Positions 196-35,829 of a DNA stretch of 40,046 nt are shown here, piece by piece; the first letter of the stretch is position 1; every line of letters begins with the position of its first letter. Source of the stretch: Halobacteriovoraceae bacterium (lineage in GTDB: Bacteria > Bdellovibrionota > Bacteriovoracia > Bacteriovoracales > Bacteriovoracaceae); contig PAKC01000007.1 in assembly GCA_002706205.1 (NCBI GenBank), forward strand, positions 1-40,046, read 5' to 3'. The notes under the pieces were generated by a model. That model was not told the origin of the DNA. It saw only the letters and a list, made by a program, of their open reading frames with translations, and did not search any database. The position numbers and the translations under genes were made by a program.

Positions 196-1533
196 TTAAT
201 TTTTCCTGCTCATCACAAAGTGTGGCTCATCAGCATCTGAAAGATGAGGCTCTCCAAGTTGACCTTCCTGATTTGCAACTAAAACACATACAGCTGCATC
301 TCCCGTCACATTAACAGTAGTCCTTAACATATCTAATATTCGATCAACCCCCAAGATTAAAGCAATACCTGCACTAGGTACACCAATCGCCTCTAAAACA
401 ATAAGCAGCATAATAATACCAGCACCAGGTATTGCAACTGTACCAACAGAGGCTAAAACTGCTGTAAAAATAATTGTCAGTTGATTTCCAAATGTTAAAT
501 CAATTCCTGTTGCTTGAGCAATAAAGACTGCCGCCACTGCTTGATAAAGAGCTGTACCATCCATATTTATTGTTGACCCTAAAGGCAAAACAAAAGAAGT
601 TACTTCTTCTTCAACACCTAGATTTTTTTCACATCTTTCCATTGTTACTGGTAACGTTGCTCCACTTGAACTTGTGGAAAAGGCCAATAATTGAGCTGGT
701 CCAATTCCTTTAAAAAACGTTTTTAACTTCATTGGGGTCAAAAACTTTATAATCAAAGGAAACGTGACTCCAGCATGTAATAACAAAGCCAGGACAACAA
801 CAAAACAGTAAAAGCCTAATGCCGATAAAAGCTCACCAATTTGGCCAATATCATCTCCAGCAACTGAAACAATAGTATTGGCCAACAAAGAGAAGACTCC
901 AAAAGGAGCTAATAACATCGCCATATCAACTACTTTTAAGACAACTTCATTGGCATTATCTAAAATACTCACAAGTTGGTCAGACTTTGAGTTCTCAATT
1001 TGAATTAAAGCAATTCCAAATAAAATGGCAACAATAACCACCTGAAGCATATTTCTATTATTACCAGCTGATTCAACAATATTTTCAGGAACCATTTCTA
1101 CAATGGGCTGCAAAGGTCCTCTTTCTTTTGCCTTTTTTGCATTTGATTCTTTGTCGGCCACTTTGGCCTGATAACTTTTTTGAAGCTTATCTGTAAGCTC
1201 TTTTGGAATACTTTTCCCTGGCTGTAATATATTTACAGATAACAGCCCAATCGTTACAGCAATTGCAGTGGTACATAAGTATATAAGAATCGTTTTTCCA
1301 CCCATTCGCGATAGTTTCTTAATATCTGATAATGAAGCGACACCTACAATGAGAGATGTTAAGACTAAAGGAACAGCAATAAGCTTGAGCATATTAATAA
1401 AGATTTTTCCCCAAGGACTGATCCAATCGATCGTAAACTGCTGCCACCCCATAACTGATGCTAAAATCCCCCAGCCTAAACCAAGAATCATACCGATAAT
1501 AATTTTCCAATGCAGTTTTTGATACCACTTCAT
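196..1533 (-). CDS. Dicarboxylate/amino acid:cation symporter (SDF/DAACS family)
   Basis: An inner-membrane secondary transporter expected to take up acidic amino acids or C4-dicarboxylates with Na+ or H+. The 445-residue length is normal for the family. Visible hallmarks are the serine-rich re-entrant loop (STSSSGATLPVTM), followed by the second hairpin and TM7 motif GSTINMDGTALYQ, and a late TM8 stretch around VDRILDMLRTTVNVTGDA, which contains the substrate-binding Asp, Arg and Asn region. Multiple hydrophobic helices run from residue 10 onward. A hydrophilic insert rich in Lys and Glu lies near residues 105-140. The gene stands alone: its 3' end faces the terminator at 148-164, and the aminotransferase gene is divergent. 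Family assignment is secure; substrate and coupling ion are not. Na+ coupling would suit the nqr genes further along. Confidence 0.93.
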   Translation of the reverse strand: MKWYQKLHWKIIIGMILGLGWGILASVMGWQQFTIDWISPWGKIFINMLKLIAVPLVLTSLIVGVASLSDIKKLSRMGGKTILIYLCTTAIAVTIGLLSVNILQPGKSIPKELTDKLQKSYQAKVADKESNAKKAKERGPLQPIVEMVPENIVESAGNNRNMLQVVIVAILFGIALIQIENSKSDQLVSILDNANEVVLKVVDMAMLLAPFGVFSLLANTIVSVAGDDIGQIGELLSALGFYCFVVVLALLLHAGVTFPLIIKFLTPMKLKTFFKGIGPAQLLAFSTSSSGATLPVTMERCEKNLGVEEEVTSFVLPLGSTINMDGTALYQAVAAVFIAQATGIDLTFGNQLTIIFTAVLASVGTVAIPGAGIIMLLIVLEAIGVPSAGIALILGVDRILDMLRTTVNVTGDAAVCVLVANQEGQLGEPHLSDADEPHFVMSRKN

Positions 1534-17290: not shown

Positions 17291-17674
17291 ATGTATTGTC
17301 CAGTTTGTTTTAATGATACCTTAAAAATTGCCTCAAGTGGAGTTGTAAAACTTCTCTTTAATGGCAAGGCAAAATCAACCAGCCAGTTTTTCTATAATCT
17401 TTCACAAGACAAAGATGAAGAATTGCTGCAAAAAATTGAAGACGTAGTAAAAGACTACTTTATCTACTACTCTGGCTTTCAAAATAAAGACCCCATCGAA
17501 AATATTGATGCTTACTCTATTGATTTTAAATGTGAAAATAAATGCGTGATCAATATCAACCATAAGGTCAATGTCATAGGACTTCTTTTTTCACAAGATG
17601 AATTAAATGAAATTGTGGAAAGATTAGCAAAAAAATACAATATTCCAATCGATCTAAAAGACTTAAAGAGGTAA
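17291..17674 (+). CDS. Small hypothetical protein with an N-terminal CxxC
   Basis: A 127-residue cytoplasmic protein. C3 and C6 (MYCPVC) and a later pair in FKCENKC could bind one zinc ion. The segment STSQFFYNLSQDKDEELLQK and the C-terminal LNEIVERLAKKYNIPIDLKD are helical. I do not recognise the family. The ATG follows the palindrome at 17277-17290 with no ribosome site, so leaderless translation is possible. Its end overlaps that of the convergent lipoprotein gene by 12 bp. Confidence 0.72.
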   Translation: MYCPVCFNDTLKIASSGVVKLLFNGKAKSTSQFFYNLSQDKDEELLQKIEDVVKDYFIYYSGFQNKDPIENIDAYSIDFKCENKCVININHKVNVIGLLFSQDELNEIVERLAKKYNIPIDLKDLKR

Positions 17675-18994
17675 AGAAAGCTCAACTTCGATTTCAATAA
17701 ATCCATGGAAGGTAAAATCATTCCTCACCAATTTATTTAACCCAAGGTATGTATCAATAAATATCTGAGGACTTTTTTCCAGAAAAGGGATTAAATTAAG
17801 CCCTGTGCCTTTTAAGTCCAAACAACTAAAATAATCACATTGATTAACATGAACTTCTCCAAAATCAGCAAATTGCTGTTTCGCATTTTCAAGTCTTTCT
17901 TTAAAAAAAGATACATACTCCTCTTGCTGAAGCTCAATATAAAGAATATTACCGACTAACGAGATATCATTAAGATATTGAGAATAAGCTTCTTCATAAA
18001 TCTTCTTTAATTCCAACGCATTCTTTTCCACCTTAACCACAAGCATATTTTTTTGAACACTTGAAGTTGACTCTAAGATTGAGCGTTTAAGTTCATCAAT
18101 TTGCCCACGCTTTCGCAACTCAATTAAAATACCATTCGGTCTCTTGCGATAAAGCTCATATGAACGAGAATTAAGTATTGGCCGAGAATGAACATGTCTT
18201 ATATAAGGTTTAAATTTATCTCCCTTCAAGTATTGAGTTATGGCCGCTTTATCATTGCTAACCTTAAGACGATACAGTTTATTATCGGTTACATGCTTAA
18301 GACGACTCACATCGATCAGTGGAGGAGGATTTCTCATTCTTAAAAGATTAATATGACGATAATTATCTTTACTAAAAAGTTCCTTTTCATAATCTACAGC
18401 TGTTTTAACAAAAGCTTTCCTTGAAATATCTTCAAACTCATCATAGTCTAACTCATTTATCATAAATGAAGCTCCCCTTAACGTTTGATGTGCACTTGCA
18501 ATATTAACGAACAAGCTATCAATAAGAGAAAAGCCAGACCTTTTATTGCCATTACAATCCTTTAAATCTGAATGACACTTATCTGTGGTAAAAATGACTC
18601 TTTTAATTTTCGCAGACTTCACATATTCAGAATCAACCTCTGGCAAATCAAAGTATGAACGAAACATCACATGATTTCTTCTGCCCATTTTGACCCACAT
18701 ATTATAAAAAGAGTACTTAAAAGAATCATAAACTTTTTTTATTAATCTCTTGTCTGCTGCATCTAAATTCTCATTACCTAAAATTTCTTCAACTTCATAA
18801 TAGCCCAAAGTATCTTGAGTCAATGGTATTTTGAAATTAAGACTTAACCTCTGCCCATCACCAAATTTTTCCACTAATGTTTCAGAAGAAGCAAATGGTT
18901 TTACTTGTGAAGTTGACCTAAAACCATTATCACTCAAGTCCTTAACGAGACATGCTTGAAACAAAAATAAAAATACAATAAAAATCATTTTCAA
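17663..18994 (-). CDS. Hypothetical lipoprotein
   Basis: An export signal with lipobox FQAC lies at the very N-terminus. The frame is open from a TTG at 19012, but AGGAG (about 19002-19007 on the complement) lies eight bases before a TTG at 18994, giving MKMIFIVFLFLFQAC; an ATG at 18988 is the alternative. The mature part is about 430 residues, mixed alpha-beta, lysine-rich, with a pair of Cys in FTTDKCHSDLKDCNG and another in NQCDYFSCLDLKG that could make disulfides. I recognise no domain. It is divergent from the beta-barrel gene at 19171, sharing a 158-bp promoter region. Confidence 0.75.
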   Translation of the reverse strand: MKMIFIVFLFLFQACLVKDLSDNGFRSTSQVKPFASSETLVEKFGDGQRLSLNFKIPLTQDTLGYYEVEEILGNENLDAADKRLIKKVYDSFKYSFYNMWVKMGRRNHVMFRSYFDLPEVDSEYVKSAKIKRVIFTTDKCHSDLKDCNGNKRSGFSLIDSLFVNIASAHQTLRGASFMINELDYDEFEDISRKAFVKTAVDYEKELFSKDNYRHINLLRMRNPPPLIDVSRLKHVTDNKLYRLKVSNDKAAITQYLKGDKFKPYIRHVHSRPILNSRSYELYRKRPNGILIELRKRGQIDELKRSILESTSSVQKNMLVVKVEKNALELKKIYEEAYSQYLNDISLVGNILYIELQQEEYVSFFKERLENAKQQFADFGEVHVNQCDYFSCLDLKGTGLNLIPFLEKSPQIFIDTYLGLNKLVRNDFTFHGFIEIEVELSLPL

Positions 18995-19170
18995 AAAAAG
19001 CACTCCTACCAAATATGGATTCTCTTACTTTACAAGAAATTGCTTAGGGAAAAACCCAAAAAGAGTGCACCGTGTCATTTTTACATTTCTTTTCTTTTCT
19101 TCTGAAATAAAAATGCTTTGCAGTTAAAATCTTGTGAATAATAAATATAAAAATTAAGGGATTCAATATT

Positions 19171-20403
19171 TTGAGAGCACTATTTCAAATAAATTTATTT
19201 TTAATTTTATTGCTTTCTTGCCTCCATGCAAATGCTCAATACTACAAGACTCTTCCAAAGGGAGTCAGACTCCTTAACACAAGATATATCAAATCCAATA
19301 TTTCGTCCTCATTTAATCGCTCAAAATCAGAATCTCCTTATCAGTATGAAATTCAAGCTGATACACAACAACTTGAAAGTATTAATAATCAAACCCTCAA
19401 TGATGCTCTTGAGGTCCTACAAGAATATCCTGAAGCCTACGATAAATTTACCCTAGGAACTCACAAGCTTGACGCCAATGCTGATGTCAACGTAGAAGTT
19501 CTTGGTTTTGCCTACGGAATATCCAGCCAAGTCACTGCGTATGTGGGTATTCCTATCTACCAAGCACATGTAAAACTTAACTACTCCCGCCCTCAAGACA
19601 GTACTCAACAAGAAGTCGCCCAAATCCTACAAAGTGAATACGGTGATAATTGGGCACAAACTGTTGGTAATATTCTTGAAAAAATTTATCAAATCGATCA
19701 AGCTGCTATACAAAGTACTCTCGTCAATCATTACGGATATCAAGAATTAGGTGATTGGAATGGAACTGGCCTTGGCGATATTGAGCTAGGTTTCATGTAT
19801 AACTTTAAAGAAACAAAAACCTATGGACTCAAATCAACAATTGGTTTTATTGCTCCTACAGGCTATACAGACGATCCCGACTTGATTCAAGACATAGGGT
19901 TTGGCGATGGACAATGGGACATTTTTTTTGAATTTGGAAGTGGGATTAGAGTCGCTGATAATACTTACTTTAACATATGGTCACGTTATACATATCAAAT
20001 GGAGACGACGAAAGAACTAAGAGTTCCTTATGATGAAGATATCTTTATTTCAAGTGAGAAAACCACTTTCCGTGAAAAGCTAGGTAATCAAATAGAGCTA
20101 AATTTAAACCTCGGTCATGCCTTAAATGATTGGTTCACACTCACTCCTGAGCTCAACTTTAACTTTACTGAGGCTGCAACGTACTCATCTGATCATCATG
20201 AGGCGAACGACATCCTTGCAATGAATACAGAATCTTATTCTCAAAACTTTAAAATAGCCGCAAATTTTAGTAGTATTGAGCTTTTTCAAAAAAACAGTTT
20301 TCTATTACCAGCTCAACTTAATCTCTCCTATCAAACGATGTTAACAGGAAAAAATACACCAAAGGTAGACCTACTAGAAATTGATTTTAGATTATTTTTC
20401 TAA
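19171..20403 (+). CDS. Outer-membrane beta-barrel protein
   Basis: TTG start with AAGGG ten bases upstream. Signal peptide about residues 1-22 (LLSCLHANAQ). The mature protein alternates strand and turn, with repeated aromatic-girdle patterns such as GLGDIELGFMYNF, YGLKSTIGFIAPTG, YFNIWSRYTYQ and QIELNLNLGHALNDWFTLTP, and ends in LEIDFRLFF, with the terminal Phe recognised by the BAM machinery. The layout resembles MetA-pathway/phenol-degradation type transporter barrels, but function is unknown. The stop overlaps the stop of the response-regulator gene through CTAA. Confidence 0.82.
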   Translation: MRALFQINLFLILLLSCLHANAQYYKTLPKGVRLLNTRYIKSNISSSFNRSKSESPYQYEIQADTQQLESINNQTLNDALEVLQEYPEAYDKFTLGTHKLDANADVNVEVLGFAYGISSQVTAYVGIPIYQAHVKLNYSRPQDSTQQEVAQILQSEYGDNWAQTVGNILEKIYQIDQAAIQSTLVNHYGYQELGDWNGTGLGDIELGFMYNFKETKTYGLKSTIGFIAPTGYTDDPDLIQDIGFGDGQWDIFFEFGSGIRVADNTYFNIWSRYTYQMETTKELRVPYDEDIFISSEKTTFREKLGNQIELNLNLGHALNDWFTLTPELNFNFTEAATYSSDHHEANDILAMNTESYSQNFKIAANFSSIELFQKNSFLLPAQLNLSYQTMLTGKNTPKVDLLEIDFRLFF

Positions 20404-21062
20404 ACAAGTTTGTAACCTTTCCCCCAAACGGTATCAATATAAAGGTCAGCTTGTTTGATTTTTTTTCTTAAGGAAAAAACATGGACATCAATGTTTCTCA
20501 CCGTCATTTTCTCATCATTTCTAAAACATTCTATAAGCTCTTCTCTAGTAACAGCTTGTGAAAGTTCATTATAAAGCTTTTCAAAAATAATATATTCTCG
20601 ACGGGTTAAAGTGACTGTTTTCCCTTTTTTTATAAAGGCACAGGCTTCAGGTAGCAGTTGAAAATCAGTTGAAACAAGTTCTTCATTAAGATGGCGAAAC
20701 TTAGCTTGGGCGTTTTCAATCCTGGCCAACAATTCCTCTAATGAAAAAGGCTTCGTTATATAATCATCAGCTCCTGCTTTTAAACCAGTAACAATCTCTT
20801 CGTTTTTTGTGTAAGCCGAGACCATAAATATTGGTGAATATTTATCTGTTTCTCTTATTTTCTCAATGATTTTAATTCCAGGATCCCCTGGCAAATTCCA
20901 ATCAACAATATATAAACCTTTAAAGTCTTTTTTGATGTTTTTATGAAAATCTTCAGCATTATTAAAACTTACCACAGAATAGTTTTGAGCTTCTAAAAAG
21001 GTTGTTAAAGCTTCAACAATATCCTTTTCATCTTCAATAATACAAATCCTTCCTAGCTCCAT
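20400..21062 (-). CDS. OmpR/PhoB-family response regulator
   Basis: Receiver domain at residues 4-118 with the acidic pair D10/E11-D11 region (IIEDEKD), phosphoacceptor D54 in LYIVDWNLPGD, S82 and K104 in YITKPF. A winged-helix DNA-binding domain follows at about 130-220, with LTRREYIIFEKL, RNIDVHVFSLRKKI and the ending VWGKGYKLV typical of the OmpR group. No sensor kinase is adjacent, so it is an orphan here. It is divergent from the ATP-grasp operon across a 359-bp region that holds repeats of a kind such regulators bind, which makes control of that operon plausible but unproven. Confidence 0.93.
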   Translation of the reverse strand: MELGRICIIEDEKDIVEALTTFLEAQNYSVVSFNNAEDFHKNIKKDFKGLYIVDWNLPGDPGIKIIEKIRETDKYSPIFMVSAYTKNEEIVTGLKAGADDYITKPFSLEELLARIENAQAKFRHLNEELVSTDFQLLPEACAFIKKGKTVTLTRREYIIFEKLYNELSQAVTREELIECFRNDEKMTVRNIDVHVFSLRKKIKQADLYIDTVWGKGYKLV

Positions 21063-21421: not shown

Positions 21422-24400
21422 GTGAAACAAACTAAAAAAGGTCAGGAAAAACATTACAATCCTAATCTAGGTTTTATTGGAAATTCAGAAGTGAAAGTTT
21501 CCAACTACCTATTTTCAAACCAGAGACTTAGAAAAGCTTACGACCATGCTAAGCCTATAACTGATAGGCTTATGAATGAAGCAATCTCAAGTCACTATAC
21601 AGAGAGTAAAAAATTAACAAAGTTTCTAAAAAATAGAGATTTAACATTCTCCAAAAAAACCTCTAGCGGTGAATACAAAACGTTTACAGTTCCTTGTACA
21701 ACGACTGTTGTTCCTCTAGAGAAGTCTTTATTTAATGAAATTGAAGTTGCAGCTCAAAAACTAATGATTTCCTTACGTGGAGTTATCCAAGATATTTACG
21801 GGTCAAAAAACTTGGAGTCATCTAAGTTTATTCAAAGTCTACCAACACATGTGAGAAGTATCTTTATAGAGGCAATACAAACATCTGCTAATTATTTTCC
21901 CCAACTTCATCACCCTAACATGAAAGATTATCCCTTTTTAGATAATGTTGGTTTGGATCTTGTTCTTGTTGAAGATTACCTTCAAAGGTCTGAAGAATTT
22001 CCTCACCTTATTTCAAAAAAGAAAAAAGAAGAGCTACCAGGCTTACCTTTTAGAATTCTAGAAATTAATGCTGGCTCCCCATCAGGAGCATCTAATAATA
22101 TGAATGTCCTCGAGGGAATTTATGCTCAAAACCCAGAGATCTTAGACTCTCTAGGTAAAGTTATGCCAAATGATCATTTTGAGATACTTGGTAGAACTTA
22201 TAAATCTCTAGGTGAAAGCTGGACTAATAAGAAAAACGGTGTCCAAATTCTTCTTCCACCTGGAGGACAAAATGGAGCAGCACCAGAAATTCATCAACTA
22301 GCCGCATATTCTGGATTAATCTATGCTGAAGCCGATCAGCTTTACCAAGATAACGAAGGAAATATTCGTCTAAGAACAGTTGAAAAACATAATCCTATTG
22401 TGACTGCTATATATTCTCGTGTAAATGCTGACTCAGCTCTATACGATCCTGATAAAAATATTTTTATGAAGGATCCCGACTCTGCAGAGCCACTTTATTT
22501 AAGAGATAGTTTTATAAAAGATGAAGAGGGTGAAGGTAAAATTATTCTTGATGAAAAAGGAAAACCTCTTCCTCAGCAGTCTTCATATGCCATCCCTGGC
22601 TTAGTTGATGCCATCATTAACAAGAAGATCTATATGGGAGGACTAAACCGAATACTTGATAACAAAATTATCTTGGCGACGTTAACTCATTACGCTCCTA
22701 AGTTTTTCAAACAAAGAATTGAAAAAGCAGGATTAAAATCTTTTGGAGCCAAGATTCTTCCTCCTCAAACATTACCACCAACAAAAGAGTCTGTAGATAT
22801 TATTCTCAAGAACCCAGATGAGTGGGTTGTTAAAGCTCCTTCTCTTGCAGGTGGACAAGGTGTCTATATTCTTAAGACAATGCCCAAAGCTCAAAAAGAG
22901 GAAATTCTTAAAGAAATTCAGAAAAAACCGCAAGACTATGCCTATCAGCAACTTGTTAAGATTGCCCGAATCCCGGTAGCTGTTCAAAGAAAAGCTGAAG
23001 GTTATAAATTTGCGAACCTTGCCGCAGATATTAGAACGTGGGTTTTCTTTGGAGGAGGAAAAAATGCCATTCCTCAAATGTCACACAATGCCCTAGTAAG
23101 ATATGCCCCCCAAGAAAGAGGAAAGATGAGCTCTATCGTCAATACCTCAGCCGGTGGAGGCTATGCCCCTTTTGTCATTGTCGATAACACAAATGACCCT
23201 AAATCCGTTTTGGCCAAAGAGCTAATAAAGCCAAAACAGCCCTTAGTTTTTAATACTTATATGCCTGTCTTTGTTGCAGCTCAAATGGTTCAAATTTCAA
23301 GAATGCTTAATGAATCAAGAAGGCTTTTAGAAGAAGAAAAGACCTATGCTTTTGACTTATTAAATCTTATTCATGAACTAAAAAAACAAGTAAAAGAAGT
23401 TCTTTCTTATCTTCATCCACGAGCCATTGGCGATATCTACAAGATATTAGATATCCTCGAAACAAGAGTTAGCAAAACAGAGAAAAAGGAATATGAAAAC
23501 TTTATTCTTCAAAATCAACTTGAATTAGTTTCTTTGCTCAGAAAATACGATAATCACAAAGATATAAAAGAAATTAGAGATATTCTTGATAATATTAGAG
23601 TTCTCAATATAGAAAAAACTCAAAGTACATATACACAAGAAGAAAAATCGCTTGATCTTATTTTGGTTGATGATTTAATTTCTTTCACTGAAAGCTTAAA
23701 GGATAAAGATTTAAAGAATGAAATATTTAAGTTAGTCAAAATAATAAAGTCATCTGTAAACAAGGATACGCCTAACGTCTTGCTAGGACCAATAACGAAG
23801 AAAACAATTCTTAAGCATTTAAAAAGTTTTTGTGCTAAATCTAAGAAAAGACTTGAAGGTTCACCAAAGCTCGCAAACTTTTCAGAACTTTTTCAATTGG
23901 ATGCTAATGTTACAAAACTACGTTTTGAAACACTCTACTTAGGCGAAAGAGATCATGACAAAGAAATTTCTGTGGCCACTCAATATGAGATGAGAACTGG
24001 ACAATCACTTATTGATGACTCGTTTTTAGCTGATGATCTCGTTCGAGCTCGGCAAGAATGGAAACAAGTTCTTGCTTTGGCCAATACGATTACAAATGAA
24101 AAAAAGAAAAAGGATTTTATTGAACAAAAAAGGAATGAACATTTTGGAAAATTTCCAAGACTCAAGCATTTTCAAAACATCATTAATAAGCCAAATGCGA
24201 ATAAAGATGAGCTCATTGAACTCCTTGAGGTCGTACCTTATGCAAAGTTTAATATTGAAAGTTTTGCTAAAAGTCTTAATTTGTCGGTCAGAGAAGTTTT
24301 TACCAATAGACTCAAAGAAGATCGAATTTCTTTACTGAGTTCTCCACAACTAAAAAAGCATAAACTAGAGCACCGTGAGTTTGCAGGAGAATGCTTTGCT

Positions 24401-25162
24401 AAAAAGAAGGCTTCACATGGTCTATACTCAAATAGTGAAATCTACATCTGGATTAGAAAAGAAATAAATCCTTTTGTGATGCTTTACACGGCTGGACATG
24501 AGCTTATACATTATCAACAAATAAAAAACTCAATGAAAGCAGAAAAAAGAGCTCTTAAAGATGGGGGACTTTCAATTGCAAAGTTTTTAAATTATTATGG
24601 AAATTTTTTAGGAGCGAACAATCGCTCTGTTGATAAAATTGAATTTGATTTAAAGATCAACAGAAAAACGCTCTATGGTTATAGTGACCACCTTTATTCT
24701 CATGATAAGTCTGATAAGCCTATTATCAGTGAACTTGACCAGGCCATTCGTACAAGTGATCAAGCTTGGGATCAAAAGCTAGATGAATTTGGATCTTTGC
24801 TTAACTATATCATGAATAGTGATAGTGGGGATAAGGTCAAGGCCCTTCAAGAAGTTCTTCCTGCACTAGAAAATGCTAAGAATATACTTTTTGCCCAAGA
24901 GTTAGGACTTGAGATTAATGTTAACCCAGTTGCAGCTGCGATGCCATCAGCAAATGCTAACCAAGTTAAATATTATGAAGATGATATCATAGCTGCTTGT
25001 AAAACATCGGATCCTATATGGGAATCACTAAGAATTATTGCTTCTCATCAATATCATGGTGTCAATTTTTCAAGAGGTGATAATGACCGTTTAAGTACGA
25101 CGCTTATGCCTCGCTTAAGAGCAGTAGCAATGGGAAGTAGTTATAACCAAACACAACAATAA
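21422..25162 (+). CDS. Circularly permuted ATP-grasp protein fused to a HExxH metallopeptidase-like domain
   Basis: A 1246-residue cytoplasmic protein. Residues of about 170-600 follow the circularly permuted ATP-grasp family (DUF404/407 type): ILEINAGSPSGASNNMNVL, GVQILLPPGGQNGAAPEIHQ, IYSRVNADSALYDPD, YAIPGLVDAIINKKIYMGG, and the nucleotide-binding strand WVVKAPSLAGGQGVYI with IRTWVFFGG later. Such enzymes join a carboxylate to an amine using ATP. Residues 620-900 are helical and lysine-rich. A zinc-binding HELIH lies at 1026-1030 in YTAGHELIHYQQ, preceded by a strand (EIYIWI), as in gluzincin peptidases; the third ligand is not identified. Usual partners of this ATP-grasp group (alpha-E, transglutaminase) are absent. 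GTG start after GAGG. First gene of a three-gene operon. Confidence 0.82.
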   Translation: MKQTKKGQEKHYNPNLGFIGNSEVKVSNYLFSNQRLRKAYDHAKPITDRLMNEAISSHYTESKKLTKFLKNRDLTFSKKTSSGEYKTFTVPCTTTVVPLEKSLFNEIEVAAQKLMISLRGVIQDIYGSKNLESSKFIQSLPTHVRSIFIEAIQTSANYFPQLHHPNMKDYPFLDNVGLDLVLVEDYLQRSEEFPHLISKKKKEELPGLPFRILEINAGSPSGASNNMNVLEGIYAQNPEILDSLGKVMPNDHFEILGRTYKSLGESWTNKKNGVQILLPPGGQNGAAPEIHQLAAYSGLIYAEADQLYQDNEGNIRLRTVEKHNPIVTAIYSRVNADSALYDPDKNIFMKDPDSAEPLYLRDSFIKDEEGEGKIILDEKGKPLPQQSSYAIPGLVDAIINKKIYMGGLNRILDNKIILATLTHYAPKFFKQRIEKAGLKSFGAKILPPQTLPPTKESVDIILKNPDEWVVKAPSLAGGQGVYILKTMPKAQKEEILKEIQKKPQDYAYQQLVKIARIPVAVQRKAEGYKFANLAADIRTWVFFGGGKNAIPQMSHNALVRYAPQERGKMSSIVNTSAGGGYAPFVIVDNTNDPKSVLAKELIKPKQPLVFNTYMPVFVAAQMVQISRMLNESRRLLEEEKTYAFDLLNLIHELKKQVKEVLSYLHPRAIGDIYKILDILETRVSKTEKKEYENFILQNQLELVSLLRKYDNHKDIKEIRDILDNIRVLNIEKTQSTYTQEEKSLDLILVDDLISFTESLKDKDLKNEIFKLVKIIKSSVNKDTPNVLLGPITKKTILKHLKSFCAKSKKRLEGSPKLANFSELFQLDANVTKLRFETLYLGERDHDKEISVATQYEMRTGQSLIDDSFLADDLVRARQEWKQVLALANTITNEKKKKDFIEQKRNEHFGKFPRLKHFQNIINKPNANKDELIELLEVVPYAKFNIESFAKSLNLSVREVFTNRLKEDRISLLSSPQLKKHKLEHREFAGECFAKKKASHGLYSNSEIYIWIRKEINPFVMLYTAGHELIHYQQIKNSMKAEKRALKDGGLSIAKFLNYYGNFLGANNRSVDKIEFDLKINRKTLYGYSDHLYSHDKSDKPIISELDQAIRTSDQAWDQKLDEFGSLLNYIMNSDSGDKVKALQEVLPALENAKNILFAQELGLEINVNPVAAAMPSANANQVKYYEDDIIAACKTSDPIWESLRIIASHQYHGVNFSRGDNDRLSTTLMPRLRAVAMGSSYNQTQQ

Positions 25163-25178
25163 GAAGGAAAGGTATCAA

Positions 25179-27248
25179 ATGGTTAGTGCAAATGCAGTAA
25201 CTTATGTTTCAAACCTCGTGATGAAGCAGGCCATGACTCTGGAAGAGCGATTGGCCTGCCTTTTATCTCAAAATGGTGGGCGAAACGAATTAAAGGACAC
25301 ATCTATTTCAGTTGTCGATGTCCATGCTTATAATGGTCTATGTGGCTACAACTACTGGGATGGAGAAACATTAATTGGTCAACTCTATATGGGGACTCTT
25401 CAAAGTGGAACCTACGTCATTTACAAAAGAACGTACATTGATGAAAAAATAACAGAAGCTTATGATTATTATGACCCGGCCGGAAACTTTTTTTATGCTT
25501 CAAGTAGTCTAGATGGCTCATGTATAACTTATGAATCCATCTTAATGGATCCAACCAATCCACTTATTAATCATATCTATAATATTCTTTATGTTGAATA
25601 CGGTGGGACGACCTATAATTACGGAAATACCTCACGCATAAAGTTTTTAGAACAAATTCTCAATACTTTCTATAAGTCTGAGCAGTATTTTATTTCCGCA
25701 GAGAATAAGCTCAAAGACACAGCGATTTTGAAAATTTCAGAAGAAATACTTAGGGTGGAAAATGACCCTGTTTTAAAATGGACAGAAAGACAAATTATTT
25801 ACAAACAGCTAAAACAAAAACGTTCAAAGATTTTAAGTACAAAAAGACGGGCCCATAACTTTCATTATATGCTTTATGACTTTATAGTCATGTTTGGAAA
25901 TATTAAGTTAAAATATCAAACTTTTAAAAGGCGTCCTCTCAATAATCTTTCGGGTACTTTTTATCGCCACACTCTCGGCCACTTTTTTTGGTTTGTAAAT
26001 ACTGTTCGCAATAATTTAGGCTACTCTATTGCCATGGCGATTTACGGCCCTTTTACGTTTTATTTTATCACTCAACCAATGAACCCTCACGCCATGTGGG
26101 CCGTTGGTAAAGTTCGTAACGCCTATATTGAAACCATGAAAAGTGTTTCAGATGATGATAAAAATGATAAGGCTGACACTAAGAAGCAATTAAAAATTAT
26201 TGAAGATCAAGTTAAGACACAAAAAGCTGCTCCCAAATTGCTTGTATATCCAACTCAAGATATTTCTTGGTCTGAGAGAATGGGCAATTTTAAGGCCATG
26301 CAAATTGCTTATGAAGAAGCGATGGTCTTTGCTGAAAGAATGGGAAGATTTGAACAATTTGAAACTCAGCTTAATTTTCCGCTTACAGCAGAAGCGGCTT
26401 GGATGGAAATGGAGCTTTACCTTGAAGATTTAAATGGTAAGTTAGACTACTTCAAAAATCTTGATCAACGTCTCGTAAAGTTTCTAAAAAATGAGAAAAA
26501 AAGAACCCTTGAATTACAATTTTATATTTGGCAAAAAATGGGACAGTTTTTTATCGATTACCCTTATATTGTTGTCGATCAAGAAAATGAACAGACACAA
26601 AGAAATTACTACCTAGGTCGTCAATTCGTTTTTTTTGAAAAAATATCTAAAAAACTATCTGCTCTAGGCATGGCCAGCTCACCAAAAACTCATAAAAATG
26701 TGATTGCCCTTGCCAATCGTTTTAAAAAAATGAAAATTGAAGGAAATACAGTCCTCGATACCTTAAGAAAAAACTCCAAAATTTTTCAACAAAAAAACTT
26801 TCTTAGCTCCGAAGAACACAGAGATTATATGAAAAGACATTGGGAAGTTCTTTTTATGCAACAAAACAAAAAACAAGAAGCTTCCTCATTTTCTCTTCAA
26901 GCCTATACATGGTCCGTTAGAAATGCCATTTGGTTACTCCAAACGATATATTCGGCTAAAAGAAGTGAACTGTATAAATTTGTGGCCAATTACAACTTAG
27001 ATAATATGAGTAGTGAAAAAGAGCAAGCCTCTGATGCCATGAATGAATATTTGGCGAATATGTTTAATAATTTAGTGATGGAATACGTTTCAATCAAAAA
27101 AGAAATGGTTGAAAATCTTCCCGGAGATCCAGAGTTTCGCCTTCGAGAAAATGTTATCCATAATATAAAGGCCTATTTAACTGAGCGAGATAAACTTTTT
27201 AACCAAAATATTTATGCTTCAAAAGAAAGTAAGGGCACGAGAATATAA
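25179..27248 (+). CDS. Large helical protein of unknown function with one probable membrane segment
   Basis: A 689-residue protein without signal peptide. Residues 40-150 are strand-rich with many Tyr and Gly (YNGLCGYNYWDGETLIGQLY). From 155 onward it is helical and basic. A hydrophobic stretch at about 280-298 (GYSIAMAIYGPFTFYFITQP) could cross or dip into a membrane. The region 330-680 is a long array of helices. I do not recognise any family; it does not show the start motif of alpha-E proteins, although a remote helical relation cannot be excluded. It follows the ATP-grasp stop by 16 bp with a strong AGAAGGAAAGG site, and its TAA overlaps the next ATG by one base. A partner of the ATP-grasp enzyme is the natural inference. 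Confidence 0.8.
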   Translation: MVSANAVTYVSNLVMKQAMTLEERLACLLSQNGGRNELKDTSISVVDVHAYNGLCGYNYWDGETLIGQLYMGTLQSGTYVIYKRTYIDEKITEAYDYYDPAGNFFYASSSLDGSCITYESILMDPTNPLINHIYNILYVEYGGTTYNYGNTSRIKFLEQILNTFYKSEQYFISAENKLKDTAILKISEEILRVENDPVLKWTERQIIYKQLKQKRSKILSTKRRAHNFHYMLYDFIVMFGNIKLKYQTFKRRPLNNLSGTFYRHTLGHFFWFVNTVRNNLGYSIAMAIYGPFTFYFITQPMNPHAMWAVGKVRNAYIETMKSVSDDDKNDKADTKKQLKIIEDQVKTQKAAPKLLVYPTQDISWSERMGNFKAMQIAYEEAMVFAERMGRFEQFETQLNFPLTAEAAWMEMELYLEDLNGKLDYFKNLDQRLVKFLKNEKKRTLELQFYIWQKMGQFFIDYPYIVVDQENEQTQRNYYLGRQFVFFEKISKKLSALGMASSPKTHKNVIALANRFKKMKIEGNTVLDTLRKNSKIFQQKNFLSSEEHRDYMKRHWEVLFMQQNKKQEASSFSLQAYTWSVRNAIWLLQTIYSAKRSELYKFVANYNLDNMSSEKEQASDAMNEYLANMFNNLVMEYVSIKKEMVENLPGDPEFRLRENVIHNIKAYLTERDKLFNQNIYASKESKGTRI

Positions 27249-28231
27249 TGAACAAAAAAATTCTTCATACTCTTTTTTTTAATATCATATTGAGTTCCCT
27301 AGCACTGGCCAATACTAATGATATTTTTATCAACCAAGAAATTTCCAAAGGCTCAATAAAAACACAAGATATAAAGCGTAAGATACTTAAAAATATCAGG
27401 GCCAGTTATGGATTAAAAGTTTTGGGCCCAAGCCTAGCAGGAACTCACCAAGATGGAGCAACATACAATCGCTATAATTCAGGTCAAGACTGGAAAAATG
27501 ATGATTTAGACGCAACAAGTTCGCAACAAATTTACCATGCATTTAGTTTGGGTTACCAAGTCACTCCTGATGTTCAAGTTTATTACTCTAAAACTTTTCA
27601 AGATGATTATAATGATAATATTCAATATGAAACTTATAATGCTGATGGATCAATTTACAAAATTAATGAAAGAGAAACTGGAATCAGCCACAATAATGAA
27701 AGAATAAATGCCTTTATCACTAATATATATTCAAACCAGTACTTTTTTGTCATGGCCAACATCTATTACGAAATTCCAACATCAGAATTATCAAAACAAG
27801 CCGATATGCAATACGGTATTGGAATTCAACCAACAATCGGTATTTTTTCTTCTGTTTATGGTCTTTATCATGGACTTCACTTTTCACTCGCAAGGGATTA
27901 TTACAAAAGACAAGAATATGAATATAAATGCGGAGGATTTACCTGTAATCAAAAATACCAAACATCTCGTCAAAGTATCTCAGCTTATATTGGCTATAAT
28001 ATTACAGACAAACTTAACCTTAATATGGAGCTCAGCTTTGACTGGGATCAAAAAGGTGATCAGGCTCAAGCACTTAATGAATTTAATAAAAACATGGATG
28101 ATATTATTGAAATTGGCCCCAATTATTCCCTAACAAATAATATTTATCTAGGAGCAAGAGTTCAATATGCTCTTACAAACGCAGAAGCTGAAAAATCGGC
28201 TTTAATAGGAACAATGAATCTCAGTTTATAA
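27248..28231 (+). CDS. Outer-membrane beta-barrel protein, last gene of the ATP-grasp operon
   Basis: Signal peptide about residues 1-21 (cleavage after SLALA). The mature part of about 305 residues has repeating amphipathic strands with aromatic ends: IYHAFSLGYQVTPDVQVYYS, YFFVMANIYYEIP, GLHFSLARDYYKRQ, SISAYIGYNITDKLNLNMEL and NIYLGARVQYALTNAEAE, a typical 12- to 14-strand barrel. A single CGGFTC pair may form a loop disulfide. Its ATG shares an A with the preceding stop (TAATG), so it is translationally coupled to the orphan protein. This places an outer-membrane component in the same expression unit as a cytoplasmic ligase. Sequence is not similar to the barrel at 19171 beyond general style. 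Confidence 0.82.
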   Translation: MNKKILHTLFFNIILSSLALANTNDIFINQEISKGSIKTQDIKRKILKNIRASYGLKVLGPSLAGTHQDGATYNRYNSGQDWKNDDLDATSSQQIYHAFSLGYQVTPDVQVYYSKTFQDDYNDNIQYETYNADGSIYKINERETGISHNNERINAFITNIYSNQYFFVMANIYYEIPTSELSKQADMQYGIGIQPTIGIFSSVYGLYHGLHFSLARDYYKRQEYEYKCGGFTCNQKYQTSRQSISAYIGYNITDKLNLNMELSFDWDQKGDQAQALNEFNKNMDDIIEIGPNYSLTNNIYLGARVQYALTNAEAEKSALIGTMNLSL

Positions 28232-28994: not shown

Positions 28995-30017
28995 CTATTG
29001 AGAAGTCTTCAAGTACTTATCAAAGTATGATGAAGCTTTATACACTATTTTATCACCTTCTTTAACCTGAAAAAACACTGCTAAACCATTTTTATCAGCA
29101 ATGTCTAAACCTTTTTCAGCTCCCATACTCATTAAAGCTGTCGCCCATGCATCAGCATCTGCACAATAATCATGCACAACACTAACCGAAATAGTTTTAT
29201 GCTCAACTGGCATCCCCGTATGTGGATCAATAGTATGAGAAAAAACTTTATCACCATACTTTAGATAGTTACGGTAACTCCCACTTGTGGCCATACTCTT
29301 ATTTTTTAAAGGAACAACTTTGATTATACTGGCCCCTAAGCTTTCATTTGGTCCTTCAATTCCCACTTTCCAAGTCGTTTGGTCAGCTTTATGGCCTCGG
29401 GCCCTTAGTTCTCCACCTATCTCCACTAAGAGATTAGCGTATCCCTGATATTCTAAAAACTTAACTAGCTCATCCACGCCATAACCTTTGGCAATGGCCG
29501 AAAAATCTAACTCCATACCTTTGAGATAATAAAGTCTGTCATCTTTCACTTCTAATTTATTAAAGCCAACTTTTTTTATGGCCTGTTCAATGACTCTCTT
29601 TTCAGGAGCTGATTTAACTTTATGAGGTCCAAAACCCCATAAGTTCACTAAAGGAGCAACTGTCGGATCATAATACCCATAAGACTTTCTTGAAATGTTT
29701 TGAGATAGCTCGATAAGCTTTTTCATTGAGTCTGATATTTTAATTTGATCAAATTTATGTTTGTTGATTTTTGAGACTTCAGAGTCTTCAATATATGTAG
29801 AAAAGACTTGATTAAATAATCGTAAAAATTTATCAATATCTGCTTTAAGTTTTTCCTTACTCTCACTTGAATATAGCTGTACCCGATAATAAGTCCCCAT
29901 AGTTTTTCCCTCTATAGAAACAAATTTTTTCTCTGAGCTACAAGCTATAAAAAAGAACATCAACAAAAAGGTTCCAGCAGACTTGTGGAGGTGCGGAGTG
30001 TAAAAAAAACTACGCAT
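28995..30017 (-). CDS. apbE: ApbE, FAD:protein FMN transferase (lipoprotein)
   Basis: Attaches FMN covalently to threonine in NqrB and NqrC on the periplasmic side. Family motifs: GKTMGTYYRV near the start of the domain, LDFSAIAKGYGVDEL, ATSGSYRNY and HTIDPHTGMPV (Mg/FAD site). A lipobox FFIAC precedes CSSEKK. The frame is open back to an ATG at 30074 that overlaps nqrF by 17 bp, but no ribosome site is present there. I chose the ATG at 30017, which gives a 25-residue signal peptide; the ATG at 29960 would leave too short a signal. The whole 5' end lies within an 82-bp inverted repeat (29966-30047), so its initiation may depend on that structure or on coupling to nqrF. Confidence 0.93.
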   Translation of the reverse strand: MRSFFYTPHLHKSAGTFLLMFFFIACSSEKKFVSIEGKTMGTYYRVQLYSSESKEKLKADIDKFLRLFNQVFSTYIEDSEVSKINKHKFDQIKISDSMKKLIELSQNISRKSYGYYDPTVAPLVNLWGFGPHKVKSAPEKRVIEQAIKKVGFNKLEVKDDRLYYLKGMELDFSAIAKGYGVDELVKFLEYQGYANLLVEIGGELRARGHKADQTTWKVGIEGPNESLGASIIKVVPLKNKSMATSGSYRNYLKYGDKVFSHTIDPHTGMPVEHKTISVSVVHDYCADADAWATALMSMGAEKGLDIADKNGLAVFFQVKEGDKIVYKASSYFDKYLKTSQ

Positions 30018-30047
30018 AGCTAAACCACAAGTCTGCTGGAACCTTTT
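29966..30047. repeat. Perfect 23-bp inverted repeat spanning the nqrF-apbE junction
   Basis: Arms 29966-29988 and 30025-30047 are exact reverse complements (AAAAGGTTCCAGCAGACTTG and three more bases), separated by 36 bases that contain a further imperfect stem (GCGGAGT near 29993 with ACTACGC near 30009). Arms are about half G+C, higher than the surroundings. On the transcript strand the A/T flanks resemble an intrinsic terminator. It lies ten bases after the nqrF stop and includes the apbE start at 30017. It may be an attenuator between nqrF and apbE, or a small inserted repeat element that the apbE reading frame has absorbed. Confidence 0.9.
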
Positions 30048-30057
30048 AATATATTTA

Positions 30058-31281
30058 TTAACCACCGAAATCATCTAGCATGATATCTTCTCTTTCTACA
30101 CCAAGATCAAGAAGCATATTAATTACACATTGGTTCATAATTGGAGGGCCACACAAATAATACTCACAATCCTCAGGAGCAGGGTGATCTTTCAAATATT
30201 CATCGTAAAGAACATTATGGATAAAGCCAGTATATCCATCCCAATTATCTTCAGGTAAAGCATCAGAAAGAGCACAATGCCAAGTGAAGTTTTCATTTTC
30301 TCTCTGGATCATATCAAAATCTTCAACATAGAACATTTCTCTTTTTGATCTTGCTCCATACCAAAAAGTCACCTTACGATCAGTCTTAATTCTTTTAAAT
30401 TGATCAAATATATGAGAACGCATAGGCGCCATTCCGGCTCCCCCACCGACAAACACCATTTCTTTGTCAGTGTCTCTAGCAAAGAACTCTCCAAATGGTC
30501 CTGAGATAATACACTCATCACCTGGTTTTAGATTATAAATATAAGAAGACATTTTCCCAGGAGGAACATTAGGTTTACTTGGGGGTGGAGTGGCAATTCT
30601 AACATTTAGCATAATCATCCCTTTTTCCTCAGGGTAATTGGCCATAGAATAAGCTCTCACAGTTTCATCATCTACCTTGGATTTATATTGCCAAAGATTA
30701 TATTTATCCCAATCTTCTCGATATTCATCTTCAATATTAAAATCTTTAAAATCAATTTCTAATCCTGGAGGTCTTTCAATTTGAATAAAACCACCAGCTC
30801 TAAAAGGAACTGACTCACCTTCGGGAAGTTCAAGCACAAGTTCTTTAATGAAAGTCGCAACTGAGTCATTGGACTTAACTTTACACGTCCACTTTTTAAC
30901 TCCAAAAACTTCTTCAGGGACTTCAACCTTCATATTTTGCTTACAAGTTACCTGACAGGCCAGTCTCCAACCATCTTTGGCTTCTCTTTTAGTTAAATGA
31001 GACATCTCAGTAGGAAGAACATCTCCTCCACCTTCCATCACCTTTGCCACACATTGCCCACAGGTTCCCCCTCCACCACAGGCAGAAGAAAGAAAAAGTT
31101 TTTCATTTGCAAGAGCACCAAGAAGTTTTTGTCCTGGAGAGACTTTCAAATCTTTCTCACCATTCACATTGATATTAATATCACCTTGAGGTACTAGCTT
31201 TGAACGTGCAATAAGAATCAATACTACTAATAAGAGTATGACTCCTGTAAACATTGCAACACCTAAAATTACTACATTCAT
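30058..31281 (-). CDS. nqrF: NqrF, NADH-oxidising subunit of Na+-NQR
   Basis: The electron-input subunit. One N-terminal membrane helix (about 3-24), then a 2Fe-2S ferredoxin domain with Cys in [12 protein letters not shown] and CQVTC, then an FAD domain with RAYSMANYP, and an NADH-binding domain with [12 protein letters not shown] and the YLCGPPIMN ending. The length of 407 residues matches the family. It is sixth in the operon, 24 bp after nqrE, and is followed by the 23-bp inverted repeat. Confidence 0.97.
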
Positions 31282-31305
31282 TTTATTATCCTTTAATTAA
31301 CTTTC

Positions 31306-31917
31306 TTAGAGAGAAATTCCTGCAAATGCCATAAAAACAATGGCCAGCAATCCACATGTCATAAAGGTCATTCCTAAACCTCGTAAACCTTTTGGAGGAT
31401 CAGAATAATCCATTTTTTCAGTTATTCCAGCAAGTATAGCAATTGCCAAAGCCCATCCAACACTGGATCCAAATCCATAAGCAACAGACTCGCCAAAATT
31501 ATAATCTCTTTCTACCATAAATAAAGACCCTCCAAGAATTGCACAGTTGACGGTAATCAAAGGCAAGAAGATCCCCAAAGAATTGTACAAAGCCGGGAAA
31601 AACTTATCTAAGGTCATTTCTAATATTTGGACCATTGCTGCAATAACACCGATATAAGAAATCAAACCTAAAAAAGAAAGGTCCACATCAGGGTAACCGG
31701 CCCAAGATAAAGCTCCTGCCTTCAAAAAGTAGGTATATAAAAGGTTATTTGCAGGAATCGTAATTGTCTGAACGACAATAACTGCAACACCTAAACCTAG
31801 TGCAGTTGATACTTTTTTCGATACTGCCAAAAATGTACACATCCCTAAAAAGAAGGCCAGTGCAAGATTTTCTATAAAAATTGCTTTTACAATTAAACTT
31901 AAATAATGTTCAAACAT
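31306..31917 (-). CDS. nqrE: NqrE, membrane subunit of Na+-NQR
   Basis: A six-helix membrane protein homologous to NqrD with opposite topology. Cys in [10 protein letters not shown] and VNCAILGG provide two of the four ligands of the iron centre shared with NqrD. Together they carry electrons across the membrane and take part in Na+ transport. Length 203 residues, start ATG, eleven bases after nqrD. Confidence 0.97.
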
Positions 31918-31928
31918 ATCAACTGCTC

Positions 31929-32543
31929 CTACTCTTCAATTTGAGATGGGTCTTTTGTTCTTATAGCCCAAATAATTAAACCAATAATAAAAAATGCACT
32001 TGGTGGAAGTAGCATCAAACCGTTGGCTTGATACCAGCCACCATCTTTAGTTAAATCAAAAATGGTAAAACCTAAGAGTTTCCCAGATCCAAACAACTCT
32101 CTAAAAAACCCTACAACGATAAGAATAAAAGAGTAGCCTAAACCGTTTCCAATTCCATCAAAAAAAGATTCCACGGGGCCATTTTTCATTCCAAATGCCT
32201 CAGTTCTTCCCATTACAATACAGTTTGTAATGATAAGACCAACGTAAACGGCCATCGTTTTCCATTGATCATAAACATAAGCTTTTAAAAATTGCTCAGC
32301 GATAATAACCAAGGAGGCAATGATCGTCATTTGCACAATAATTCGAATCGAACTTGGTACATGATTTCTGATTAAAGAAACGCCTAAGTTAGCAAAAGCA
32401 ATAACCATTGTAACTGCTGCACACATAACGAAAACATTTTTAAGCTGGACTGTTACAGCTAAAGCCGAACATATCCCTAGTATTTGTAAAGCAATTGGGT
32501 TATTTGAAATGATAGGTTCAACAACTAATTTTTTGATGCTCAT
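31929..32543 (-). CDS. nqrD: NqrD, membrane subunit of Na+-NQR
   Basis: A six-helix membrane protein of 204 residues. Cys in LGICSALAV and [14 protein letters not shown] are the expected iron ligands complementing Nqr[17 protein letters not shown] and the ending [13 protein letters not shown] are characteristic. One base separates it from the nqrC stop. Confidence 0.97.
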
Positions 32544-32544
32544 A

Positions 32545-33306
32545 TTATAACTCCCCAGCTTTAACAGTTTCTAATAATTGAGCATACCCATGCTCTCCAA
32601 ACCAGTACTCAATAGAGTCAGAGACACCGTTAGCCGTAATGGTAGCTCCAGAAAGACCATCAATTTCATACTGACCTTGGCCTTGTCCCTTTACAACTTC
32701 TAAAGCAACTTCACCTTCTTCATTATAGATTTTTTTTCCAACCCATAAATTTTTCCACTTGGGATTATCAACTTCTCCACCTAAACCAGGAGTTTCACCT
32801 TGAGAATAATAACCAAAGCCTTTGACTGTATTCATATCAGGCCCTAAAGCAATAAAGCCATACATTGTCGACCACAGTCCTTTCCCCCACTGATTAAGAA
32901 TAAGTGTATTAATTTTTCCTGTCTCATCTCTTTTTAAATAAACCTTAGCAAGTTTAGATCTACGAGATAAACCTGCAACATCTTTTGAAGCTGGTATCTT
33001 GACACTTTTCTTTGGATTTTTTGAAGCTTCAACCTGATTGAAGTCTTCAACATCTGCATTTTCAACTCTTTTACCTGTCTGCATATCAACAACAACAGTT
33101 TCGATTGATTTAAATGCTTGGTTAATATCATCGCCTTTTTCGATTAAGCCTGCACTCATCAAAATATTCTTTTTCATGTCCAACTCTGCATTTTCAGCTT
33201 GTTGTGGCCTTAGTGTCACAACAACAACAGAAACGAGAACGGAACAAACAAAACATAATAATCCGGCAACTACTAATGTTTTCACGGTTTGATTCTGCTT
33301 AGACAT
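32545..33306 (-). CDS. nqrC: NqrC, FMN-carrying subunit of Na+-NQR
   Basis: A subunit with one membrane helix (residues 10-32 from the chosen start) and a large periplasmic FMN-binding domain. The covalent flavin site is the Thr in [13 protein letters not shown]. The open frame begins at 33354, but that places 16 residues of nqrB-overlapping sequence in front; the ATG at 33306 begins [13 protein letters not shown] as in relatives and has AAGGATGG shortly upstream. With this start it overlaps the nqrB stop by eight bases, suggesting coupling. ApbE in the same operon would attach the flavin. Confidence 0.95.
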
Positions 33307-34498
33307 CTCTTGCCATCCTTCTTTTAATATTTTTATCAACAACAAAATAATCAATTAATGGTGCACAAGCATTCATAAATAAAATAGCTAGCATCCATCC
33401 TTCAGGATAAGCCGGGTTAACTACTCTAATCAGAACTCCAAGAACACCGATCAAAAATCCATAAATATACCTTCCTGTATTTGTCATAGCTGCACTAACT
33501 GGATCTGTGGCCATAAAAACGCAAGCAAAAGCAAAACCACCTAAAACTAAATGCCAAGCAGGTGTTAAAGCAAATAAAGGATTTGAATCACTGCCGATCA
33601 TATTAAAAGTAAGGCTCATTAAAGCCATTCCAATTAGCATTGAAAGCATAATTCTCCATGAGCCAATTCCTGTTAAAATAAGATAGGATGCTCCCACTAA
33701 ACAAAGCAAAGTTGATGTTTCACCCATTGAGCCAGGAATAAAACCAATAAAAGCATCATTCCAAGCGACAGTAATTGCATCTAGCCCACCAGCGGCTGCT
33801 TGAGCAAGTGGTGTAGCCCCGGTATAACCATCAACGGCAGTCCATACTGCATCTCCTGAAATTTGAGCTGGATAAGCAAAAAACAAAAAAGCTCTTGCGG
33901 TCAAAGCTGGATTAAAAATATTTTTTCCCGTACCACCAAAAATCTCTTTTCCAATGACAACACCAAAAATAATCCCAACAGCAACTTGCCACAAAGGTAT
34001 TGTTGGAGGAAGGATTAACGGATACAATAAACCTGAAACTAAAAATCCCTCATTAATTTCATGCTTTCTTATAACTGAAAAAATTAACTCACAAGTCCCC
34101 CCTGCAATTTGGGTCACCAAAAAGACTGGGAAAAACCACATAAAACCATGAAAGAAATTATGAAGCATATTAGAGGGATCAAATCCCAGACCAATTGCTC
34201 TAATAAGGTCTGCTCTCCATCCTGTAGCTTCAAGACCTGCACTTGCCAAGGCATTGTTTGCTTGCAAGCCGGTATTGTATAAGGCCATAAGAACAATAGG
34301 TCCTAACGCCATAGCAACAGTAATCATTGTTCTTTTTAAGTCAATTCCATCTCTAACGTGAGTATTACCTTTAGCCGTCTCCCCAGGAGTGTAGGCAAAA
34401 GTATCAATTGCTTCATATAAAGGATAGAAAAGTTCAAACTTACCACCCTTATGAAAGCTCGGCTCTAATTTATCAAGGGTATCTCTTAAAAACTTCAT
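33299..34498 (-). CDS. nqrB: NqrB, main membrane subunit of Na+-NQR
   Basis: A subunit with about ten membrane helices that holds covalent FMN and riboflavin and forms the Na+ channel and quinone site. The flavin attachment site is the Thr in [12 protein letters not shown]. Other hallmarks are [19 protein letters not shown] and [16 protein letters not shown]. Length 399 residues. Its ATG overlaps the nqrA stop by one base. Confidence 0.97.
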
Positions 34499-35829
34499 TA
34501 CCCCTCCTTCTCAATTTCAGTTAAATTCTCTCTCAACTTGATAGCAAAGTCATTTTTACAAGGGTCAACAAATGTACACAAAGATAAATCTTCTTCATCC
34601 AACTCTAAAGCTCCAAGCTTGACACACATATCTGTGTTCCCACTCATTAATGCTCTTGTTAAAAATGTAGGCAAAATATCTAATGGCATAACCTTTTCAT
34701 ATGAGCCAATTGGAACAATTGATCTAAGTGAGCCATTTGTATCTGTATCAAAAGCAAATTTCTTAGAAAAAAGTTTAGAGAGATAGATTGGCTTAACTGA
34801 AAACTTATCAAATCCAGGGCTATGCCAGCCAAGTAGTTCTCTGTGTCCACCTTCAGCTAATAAAGAGACTTGATTGTGAAAACGACCTAAATAGCCAAAA
34901 CTATCTTTAGCATTTCTTCCACCGAAAACTGATCCAGAAATATATCTTACTTTATCAAATTTAACTTCATCCTTACAAAGCTCGTTAATTGCCGCTCCCA
35001 TTCTGGTTTTTAAAAGCCTAGGGTTTTTCGCCGCTGGCCCGGCCAAAGCAATCACTCTATCTGTGAAGATTTCACCATTTTCAATCAGTTTACCCAGCGC
35101 AATAACATCTTGATAACCAATATGCCAAACAAACTTCTTCTCACCAACTGGATCTAAAAAATGAATATGAGTCCCTACCAAGCCTGCAGGGTGAGGGCCA
35201 GAAAACTCTTTCTTAGTTACACCCTCTTGAGGCTGAACTGTTGAGCCTTGAGCCGTACACAAGAAAACTTTTTCACAAAGTTTTTTTAAAACTTTAATAC
35301 CTTTAGCAAAAGCTTCTTCATTATTTTTAATAATCAAAGCAGGATCTGGACTTAGGGGGTGAGTATCAATAGCTGTTACAAAAATTGAACTCGGTGTTTC
35401 ATCGGGCTTCGCAACTTTAGAGAATGGTCTACGACGCAAAGCAGTCCACTGTCCTGACTCTATTAGTAAATCTCTAACATCTTGAGAGTTGTACTGTGAT
35501 AAATCTGAACCTTTATAAGACTCAAAACTTACATGATCCTCACTCTCAACCTTGATAACCAAAGACTCAAAAGCTCTTCTCGCTCCTCGGTTAATCTCAA
35601 GGACTTCTCCAGCAACTGGGGCCGTATACTTCACTCCTACAGTTTTTTTATCAGAGTACAACAACTGCCCTTTTTTAACTTTATCTCCAACTTTAACTTC
35701 CATTGTTGGTTTCATTCCGACTAAATCATCACCCAACAGGGCAACTCGAGTAACTTTTGGGCCATCATCAATTTTCTGCTGAGGTTCCCCCTCTATAGGC
35801 AAATTAAGACCCTTTTTTAGTTTAATCAT
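34498..35829 (-). CDS. nqrA: NqrA, peripheral subunit of Na+-NQR
   Basis: The cytoplasmic subunit, 443 residues, without membrane helices or cofactors. The N-terminal barrel-sandwich region has [12 protein letters not shown] and a [17 protein letters not shown] pattern, and later [14 protein letters not shown] and [21 protein letters not shown] are typical. First gene of the operon; AAAGGA precedes the start. A weak promoter candidate (TTTCAT, 18 bases, TATGAT on the minus strand) lies within the 141-bp divergent region; confidence in it is low. Confidence 0.97.

Follow-up and report, generated by a model that had tools for sequence, protein, structure and literature searches.

The three genes described here, p1, p2 and p3, lie head to tail on the forward strand of the window, by which we mean the whole stretch of 40,046 nucleotides that was analyzed, and their features are collected in Table 1. 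The three open reading frames, the gap of 16 bp between p1 and p2, and the TAATG junction between p2 and p3 were all found where the original prediction had placed them.

Table 1. Features of the p1-p2-p3 module, with nucleotide positions in the window and residues of the encoded protein
Feature	Positions	Residues	Strand	Description
p1	21422..25162		+	Predicted CP ATP-grasp ligase + HExxH domain + C-terminal glutamine tail; 1246 aa, GTG start
CP ATP-grasp domain	22049..23053	210-544	+	PF14403/PF04174 over cut-off; aligned to PDB 3n6x; residues invariant
C-terminal region	23255..25159	612-1246	+	Confident model; fold without PDB match
HELIH (HExxH) motif	24497..24511	1026-1030	+	H, E and H invariant in 31/31
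Tail YNQTQQ	25142..25159		+	Abuts stop codon; 40/40 intact non-redundant members end in QQ
p2	25179..27248		+	689 aa; no known family
p2 hydrophobic segment	26016..26072	280-298	+	Mean hydropathy 1.19; strongly conserved
p3	27248..28231		+	327 aa; predicted outer-membrane protein with signal peptide

Profile searches bore out the claim that p1 fuses a circularly permuted (CP) ATP-grasp domain to an HExxH motif in a single chain. Both CP ATP-grasp models were matched above their cut-offs, with 69.2 bits for CP_ATPgrasp_2 (PF14403; cut-off 32) and 35.7 bits for CP_ATPgrasp_1 (PF04174; cut-off 23.1), a similarity far above chance, and the Pfam search returned only circularly permuted ATP-grasp models and none of the RimK type. 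The domain carries the motifs LEINAGSPSGASNN, WVVKAPSLAGGQGVYI and DIR, followed by VNTSAGGG at residues 573-580. In a 30-member p1 alignment, E214, N216, D413, K415, K471, G477, G478, G480, D536, R538 and N574 are invariant, and the K, GGxG, D-R and N-S regions can be aligned with 3n6x, a putative glutathionylspermidine synthase and the sole PDB sequence match of p1. Enzymes with an ATP-grasp domain of this type form amides by way of an activated carboxylate, and the p1 domain would likewise couple a carboxylate with an amine at the expense of ATP.

In the C-terminal region, H1026, E1027 and H1030 are unchanged in 31 of 31 family members, while their surroundings are only ~25-60% conserved. 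Although the motif alone would be insufficient, its invariance amid such variable sequence argues that it is not a chance occurrence; the ATP-binding and HExxH residues, on which the original prediction had staked itself, are thus both retained across the family. E1041, E1144 and E1150 are also invariant, which makes each a candidate third zinc ligand, and 30 of 40 p1 members show a weak, below-cut-off but recurrent similarity to DUF6782, a putative metallopeptidase family. The AF2 model of the region is confident (pLDDT 89.7, pTM 0.90); Foldseek returned no match at E<=0.001 in the PDB or in a viral library, including no solved peptidase fold of the zinc HExxH (gluzincin) type, and a profile search of the PDB was likewise negative. 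Structure prediction, to which the original prediction had pointed, gave a confident model here and a model of p2, and neither has a PDB match. The motif suggests hydrolysis, of a peptide or isopeptide bond in our proposal, with no structural match to back a working peptidase.

The p1 of the window ends in SYNQTQQ, and we found that 40 of the 41 non-redundant p1 members carry two to eight glutamines right before the stop codon, every one of them after a Y[NH] motif. The single member without a tail (L153) is an apparently frame-broken p1 on a contig titled Nonlabens. When the run comprises at least three glutamines, it is written with both CAA and CAG in 18 of 21 cases; these mixed codons imply that the tail is selected as protein sequence, and we reject a DNA repeat artefact. 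We also reject a general feature of these genomes, since only 1 of 712 ORFs sampled from two of them ends in QQ. AF2 predicts the last 15 residues with a mean pLDDT of 75-83.

The second gene remains as unrecognized as it was first described to be: p2 has no match in Pfam, NCBIfam or the PDB, the last of which was searched by profile and by structure. Its AF2 model (pLDDT 82.5, pTM 0.50) starts with a beta domain at the N-terminus, continues with a moderately hydrophobic helix of 46 residues (253-298) in part, and ends in a helical C-terminal portion. Residues 280-298 are a possible transmembrane segment, with a hydropathy that is borderline for this assignment. A further p2-like gene, comprising the N-terminal part only in a 358-aa open frame, lies away from p1 in another genome (L247; G328 contig C238), and a weak p2 match in G035 was discarded because of internal stop codons. 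For p3, originally called a beta-barrel, an outer-membrane location is predicted from its signal peptide and from the F that ends 45 of 59 closed members, whereas its Pfam matches were sub-threshold only.

To what extent do the three genes belong together? Of 369 Bdellovibrionota genomes, 58 encode a canonical p1, and precisely these also encode p2; 43 of them are among the 129 genomes of the class, and the other 15 fall into two further families of the phylum. Both p1 and p2 are found at 40 non-redundant loci, as a tandem pair spaced by -44 to 44 bp at 31 of these and as a divergent pair at the other 9. A p3 comes after p2, at a distance of -29 to 20 bp, at 33 of 34 loci; in G058, p2 is not followed by a p3. 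The suggestion that the three genes travel together is therefore upheld, with p1 and p2 tightly linked and p3 nearly always next, and p1-p2-p3 is a real, lineage-specific module of Bdellovibrionota. The named relatives are all metagenome-assembled genomes, most of them titled Bacteriovoracaceae, Halobacteriovoraceae, Bdellovibrionales or Oligoflexia. Contigs titled Nonlabens (L153) and Nitrosovibrio (L179) carry a Bdellovibrionota-typical p1 and are probably mis-binned or mis-named. At another locus (L129 6678-7433), part of the p1 C-terminal region persists in degenerate form and without HExxH beside two transglutaminase-like genes, possibly as the remnant of a decayed module.

Within 10 kb of the 41 non-redundant p1 genes, we found 28 transglutaminase (PF16683) and 14 glutamine deamidase (PF18626) genes, or 42 genes in 627 kb of flank where genome-wide counts lead one to expect about 3 (~1.5 transglutaminase and ~1.1 deamidase). 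Neither these neighbors nor the glutamine tail had formed part of the original prediction. The loci concerned belong to freshwater members of the window's family and to families f22 and f26; the 10-kb flanks of p1 in the window and its marine relatives contain no transglutaminase or deamidase, and the window's genome has four matches to each, all away from p1. In f22, the deamidase adjoins p2-p3 and lies between them and p1, and in G058 only 40 bp separate p1 from the end of a transglutaminase gene upstream of it. The likely catalytic residues are kept in these partners (the transglutaminase Cys in 17 of 18; the deamidase C, H and D in 9 of 9), and 52 of 73 begin with a clearly hydrophobic segment that resembles a signal peptide. 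Genomes with p1 have a median of 8 transglutaminase matches, compared to 1 in genomes without it; a genus-level comparison of these counts, which corrects only partly for kinship, gave P = 0.0003. Since relatedness inflates the neighbor counts, which are not phylogenetically independent, we regard the link between p1 and these enzymes as strong but not proven.

The original prediction had also stated that the usual alpha-E and transglutaminase partners are missing here. This holds for the window's genome, a 92%-complete assembly in which we found no alpha-E gene and no classical transglutaminase (Bact_transglu_N), but not for the relatives, with their PF16683 and PF18626 neighbors. At one locus (L118 4484-7410), a transglutaminase overlaps a DUF2126 amidoligase, divergent from p1, and this is the sole locus that resembles classical amidoligase systems. 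The module shares with the peptide-synthesis operon of CP ATP-grasp, alpha-E, transglutaminase and Anbu genes its CP ATP-grasp domain and, in p1 relatives, a transglutaminase-type partner and once the amidoligase; on the other hand, its transglutaminases are PF16683, its HExxH domain is fused, and p2 and p3 are added.

A signal peptide was predicted in 12 of 14 distant CP ATP-grasp relatives but not in p1 itself, and the genomes of these relatives lack p2 except in one case (G000). Among those with an HExxH motif, four of six retain a terminal QQ, as does one split gene: the tails of the signal-bearing proteins read QQQQ (L077, L079) and SQQ (L121, L122), and that of the split gene QQQ (L076). 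The other two (L123, L124) combine a signal peptide, ATP-grasp and HExxH yet have no QQ tail, and the distant relatives without HExxH have no glutamine tail. One distant relative has a transglutaminase 25 bp downstream. When the HExxH region of p1 was compared to that of the exported relatives, hhalign aligned the HExxH stretch only, so the second domains may have no common origin or may have diverged too far for a longer alignment. Three further proteins were noted in passing. The G000 genome encodes a second CP ATP-grasp protein of 660 aa (L080 9092-11074, contig C83) that has no HExxH, glutamine tail or visible signal peptide; a 596-aa protein (L245 2521-4311) with a signal peptide and HEKGH resembles the second domain of the exported relatives and has neither ATP-grasp nor a glutamine tail; and a 923-aa protein (L246 2670-5441) has a HEFQH domain at one end and an apparent MutS/ABC-type ATPase at the other.

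We propose, with a probability of roughly 0.4, that p1-p2-p3 is a module of Bdellovibrionota that makes and edits amide bonds in the envelope and that the glutamine tail serves as a handle for the transglutaminase and deamidase partners. The occurrence of the tail beside genes for these enzymes suggests that it is their substrate: a secreted transglutaminase would couple the tail to an amine, or, alternatively, a secreted deamidase would convert its glutamines to glutamate. Since p1 has no signal peptide and always occurs with p2, and since signal-bearing relatives stand without p2, p2 and p3 may replace the Sec signal by taking p1, or what it makes, through the envelope. On the other hand, a p1 without a signal peptide may simply stay in the cytosol with ATP, which counts against the export reading. 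The proposal is further weakened by the lack of transglutaminase and deamidase genes near p1 in the window and its marine relatives, by the two signal-bearing relatives without a tail (L123, L124) and by the borderline hydropathy of the p2 segment. Envelope modification and peptide secretion, both raised by the original prediction, are likewise inferences.

The alternative that survives best is a self-contained cytosolic device in which the ATP-grasp domain extends the glutamine tail of p1 itself or of a partner, the HExxH domain trims it, p2 acts as a scaffold, and the transglutaminases are incidental. It would resemble the pair of RimK, an ATP-grasp enzyme that lengthens RpsF at its C-terminus, and RimB, a peptidase that trims this extension (PMC12239564, PMC10092738). 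Ligase, peptidase and a C-terminal homopolymer tail are indeed united in p1, the missing signal peptide fits a cytosolic protein, and p2 is at hand in every p1 genome. However, RimK and RimB are separate proteins that act on a poly-Glu tail added after translation, while p1 is one chain with glutamines encoded in the genome and a CP ATP-grasp domain on another branch than RimK. Tailed relatives also bear signal peptides, and the enrichment of transglutaminases and deamidases would be left unexplained, which makes this device rather unlikely in our view.

The envelope reading has a more far-reaching form, which we rate as unlikely and a little below the cytosolic device. Here, the exported chain would be ligase, peptidase and substrate in one; secreted transglutaminases and deamidases would act on its poly-Gln tail, through which it is coupled, and p2 and p3 would be its dedicated export route; p1 would tag itself or be cross-linked into its own or the prey's envelope and release itself by cutting.

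Less probable again is an enzyme of small-molecule metabolism, in which the ATP-grasp domain makes a peptide-polyamine-like conjugate, the second domain hydrolyzes it, and p2 and p3 import or export the compound. The model is E. coli GspSA, a single chain that both makes and cuts an amide bond. This precedent means that the novelty originally claimed for a make-and-cut chain was overstated. The small-molecule reading gains weight from 3n6x, which is annotated as an enzyme of this kind. GspSA, however, cuts with a CHAP domain, and a Pfam search found no CHAP-type amidase domain in p1, where HExxH takes its place; the glutamine tail, p2, p3 and the transglutaminase neighbors have no counterpart in GspSA, and an invariant tail near protein-glutamine enzymes would go unexplained. 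Finally, we consider it improbable that the tail is a chemically unmodified sorting, docking or autoinhibitory segment, read by p2 or lodged in the zinc cleft: it does accompany the HExxH domain, is absent from relatives without one and is predicted more confidently than a loose tail would be, but a run of two to eight glutamines is odd for a fixed docking peptide, and p2 cannot be its sole reader since relatives without p2 retain it.

Returning to the amide-bond module that we favor, there are known examples of CP ATP-grasp proteins that have transglutaminase partners, of ligases paired with a peptidase and of make-and-cut chains. In pupylation, a C-terminal glutamine of a protein can be deamidated and then ligated. 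The likeness to Pup, Dop and PafA, which is an analogy only, lies in the modifiable C-terminal glutamine, but Pup is a separate small protein and its ligase has a glutamine-synthetase fold. The Pseudomonas rlo operon (RloA/B/C) likewise combines an ATP-grasp protein of the cytosol with a peptidase and a protein of transglutaminase fold at a single locus tied to the envelope; its peptidase, RloA, is secreted and of the aspartic type, and the transglutaminase RloB is inactive (PMC12239564). In contrast, the peptidase candidate of p1 is a fused HExxH domain, the Pfam matches of p1, p2 and p3 include no retropepsin-like aspartic peptidase, and the transglutaminases near p1 keep their near-invariant Cys. 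In the part of the literature that we covered, we found no description of the fused HExxH domain, the encoded glutamine tail, p2 or the three-gene module. If the proposal is right, bacteria would have a new way to couple proteins, through a selected, encoded poly-Gln C-terminus on an amide-bond ligase that is linked to secreted glutamine-acting enzymes. Three genes and a short peptide would suffice for a direct test of what this orphan ATP-grasp branch does. Since the Bacteriovoracaceae and their kin include known predators, the module may bear on how predator-related cells build their own envelope or remodel that of their prey.

A phage or defense origin of the locus was rejected, with only marginal PHROGs matches and none from PADLOC. 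Downstream of the module, window positions 28995-35829 encode ApbE, an NADH-reductase-like protein (Fer2/FAD/NAD), Rnf-Nqr membrane subunits and NqrA. Together they form an operon for a sodium-pumping NADH:quinone reductase, which is kept in close marine relatives and is unrelated to p1-p2-p3. On the other side, two proteins that match no Pfam family (449 aa, 17663-19012, and 410 aa, 19171-20403) are kept beside p1 in marine relatives (L065-L070) but not elsewhere. Between these and p1, and divergent from it, lies an OmpR-type response regulator (20400-21062); several of the distant relatives have similar regulators, in some cases with a kinase, in the vicinity of p1, and such regulators may control it.
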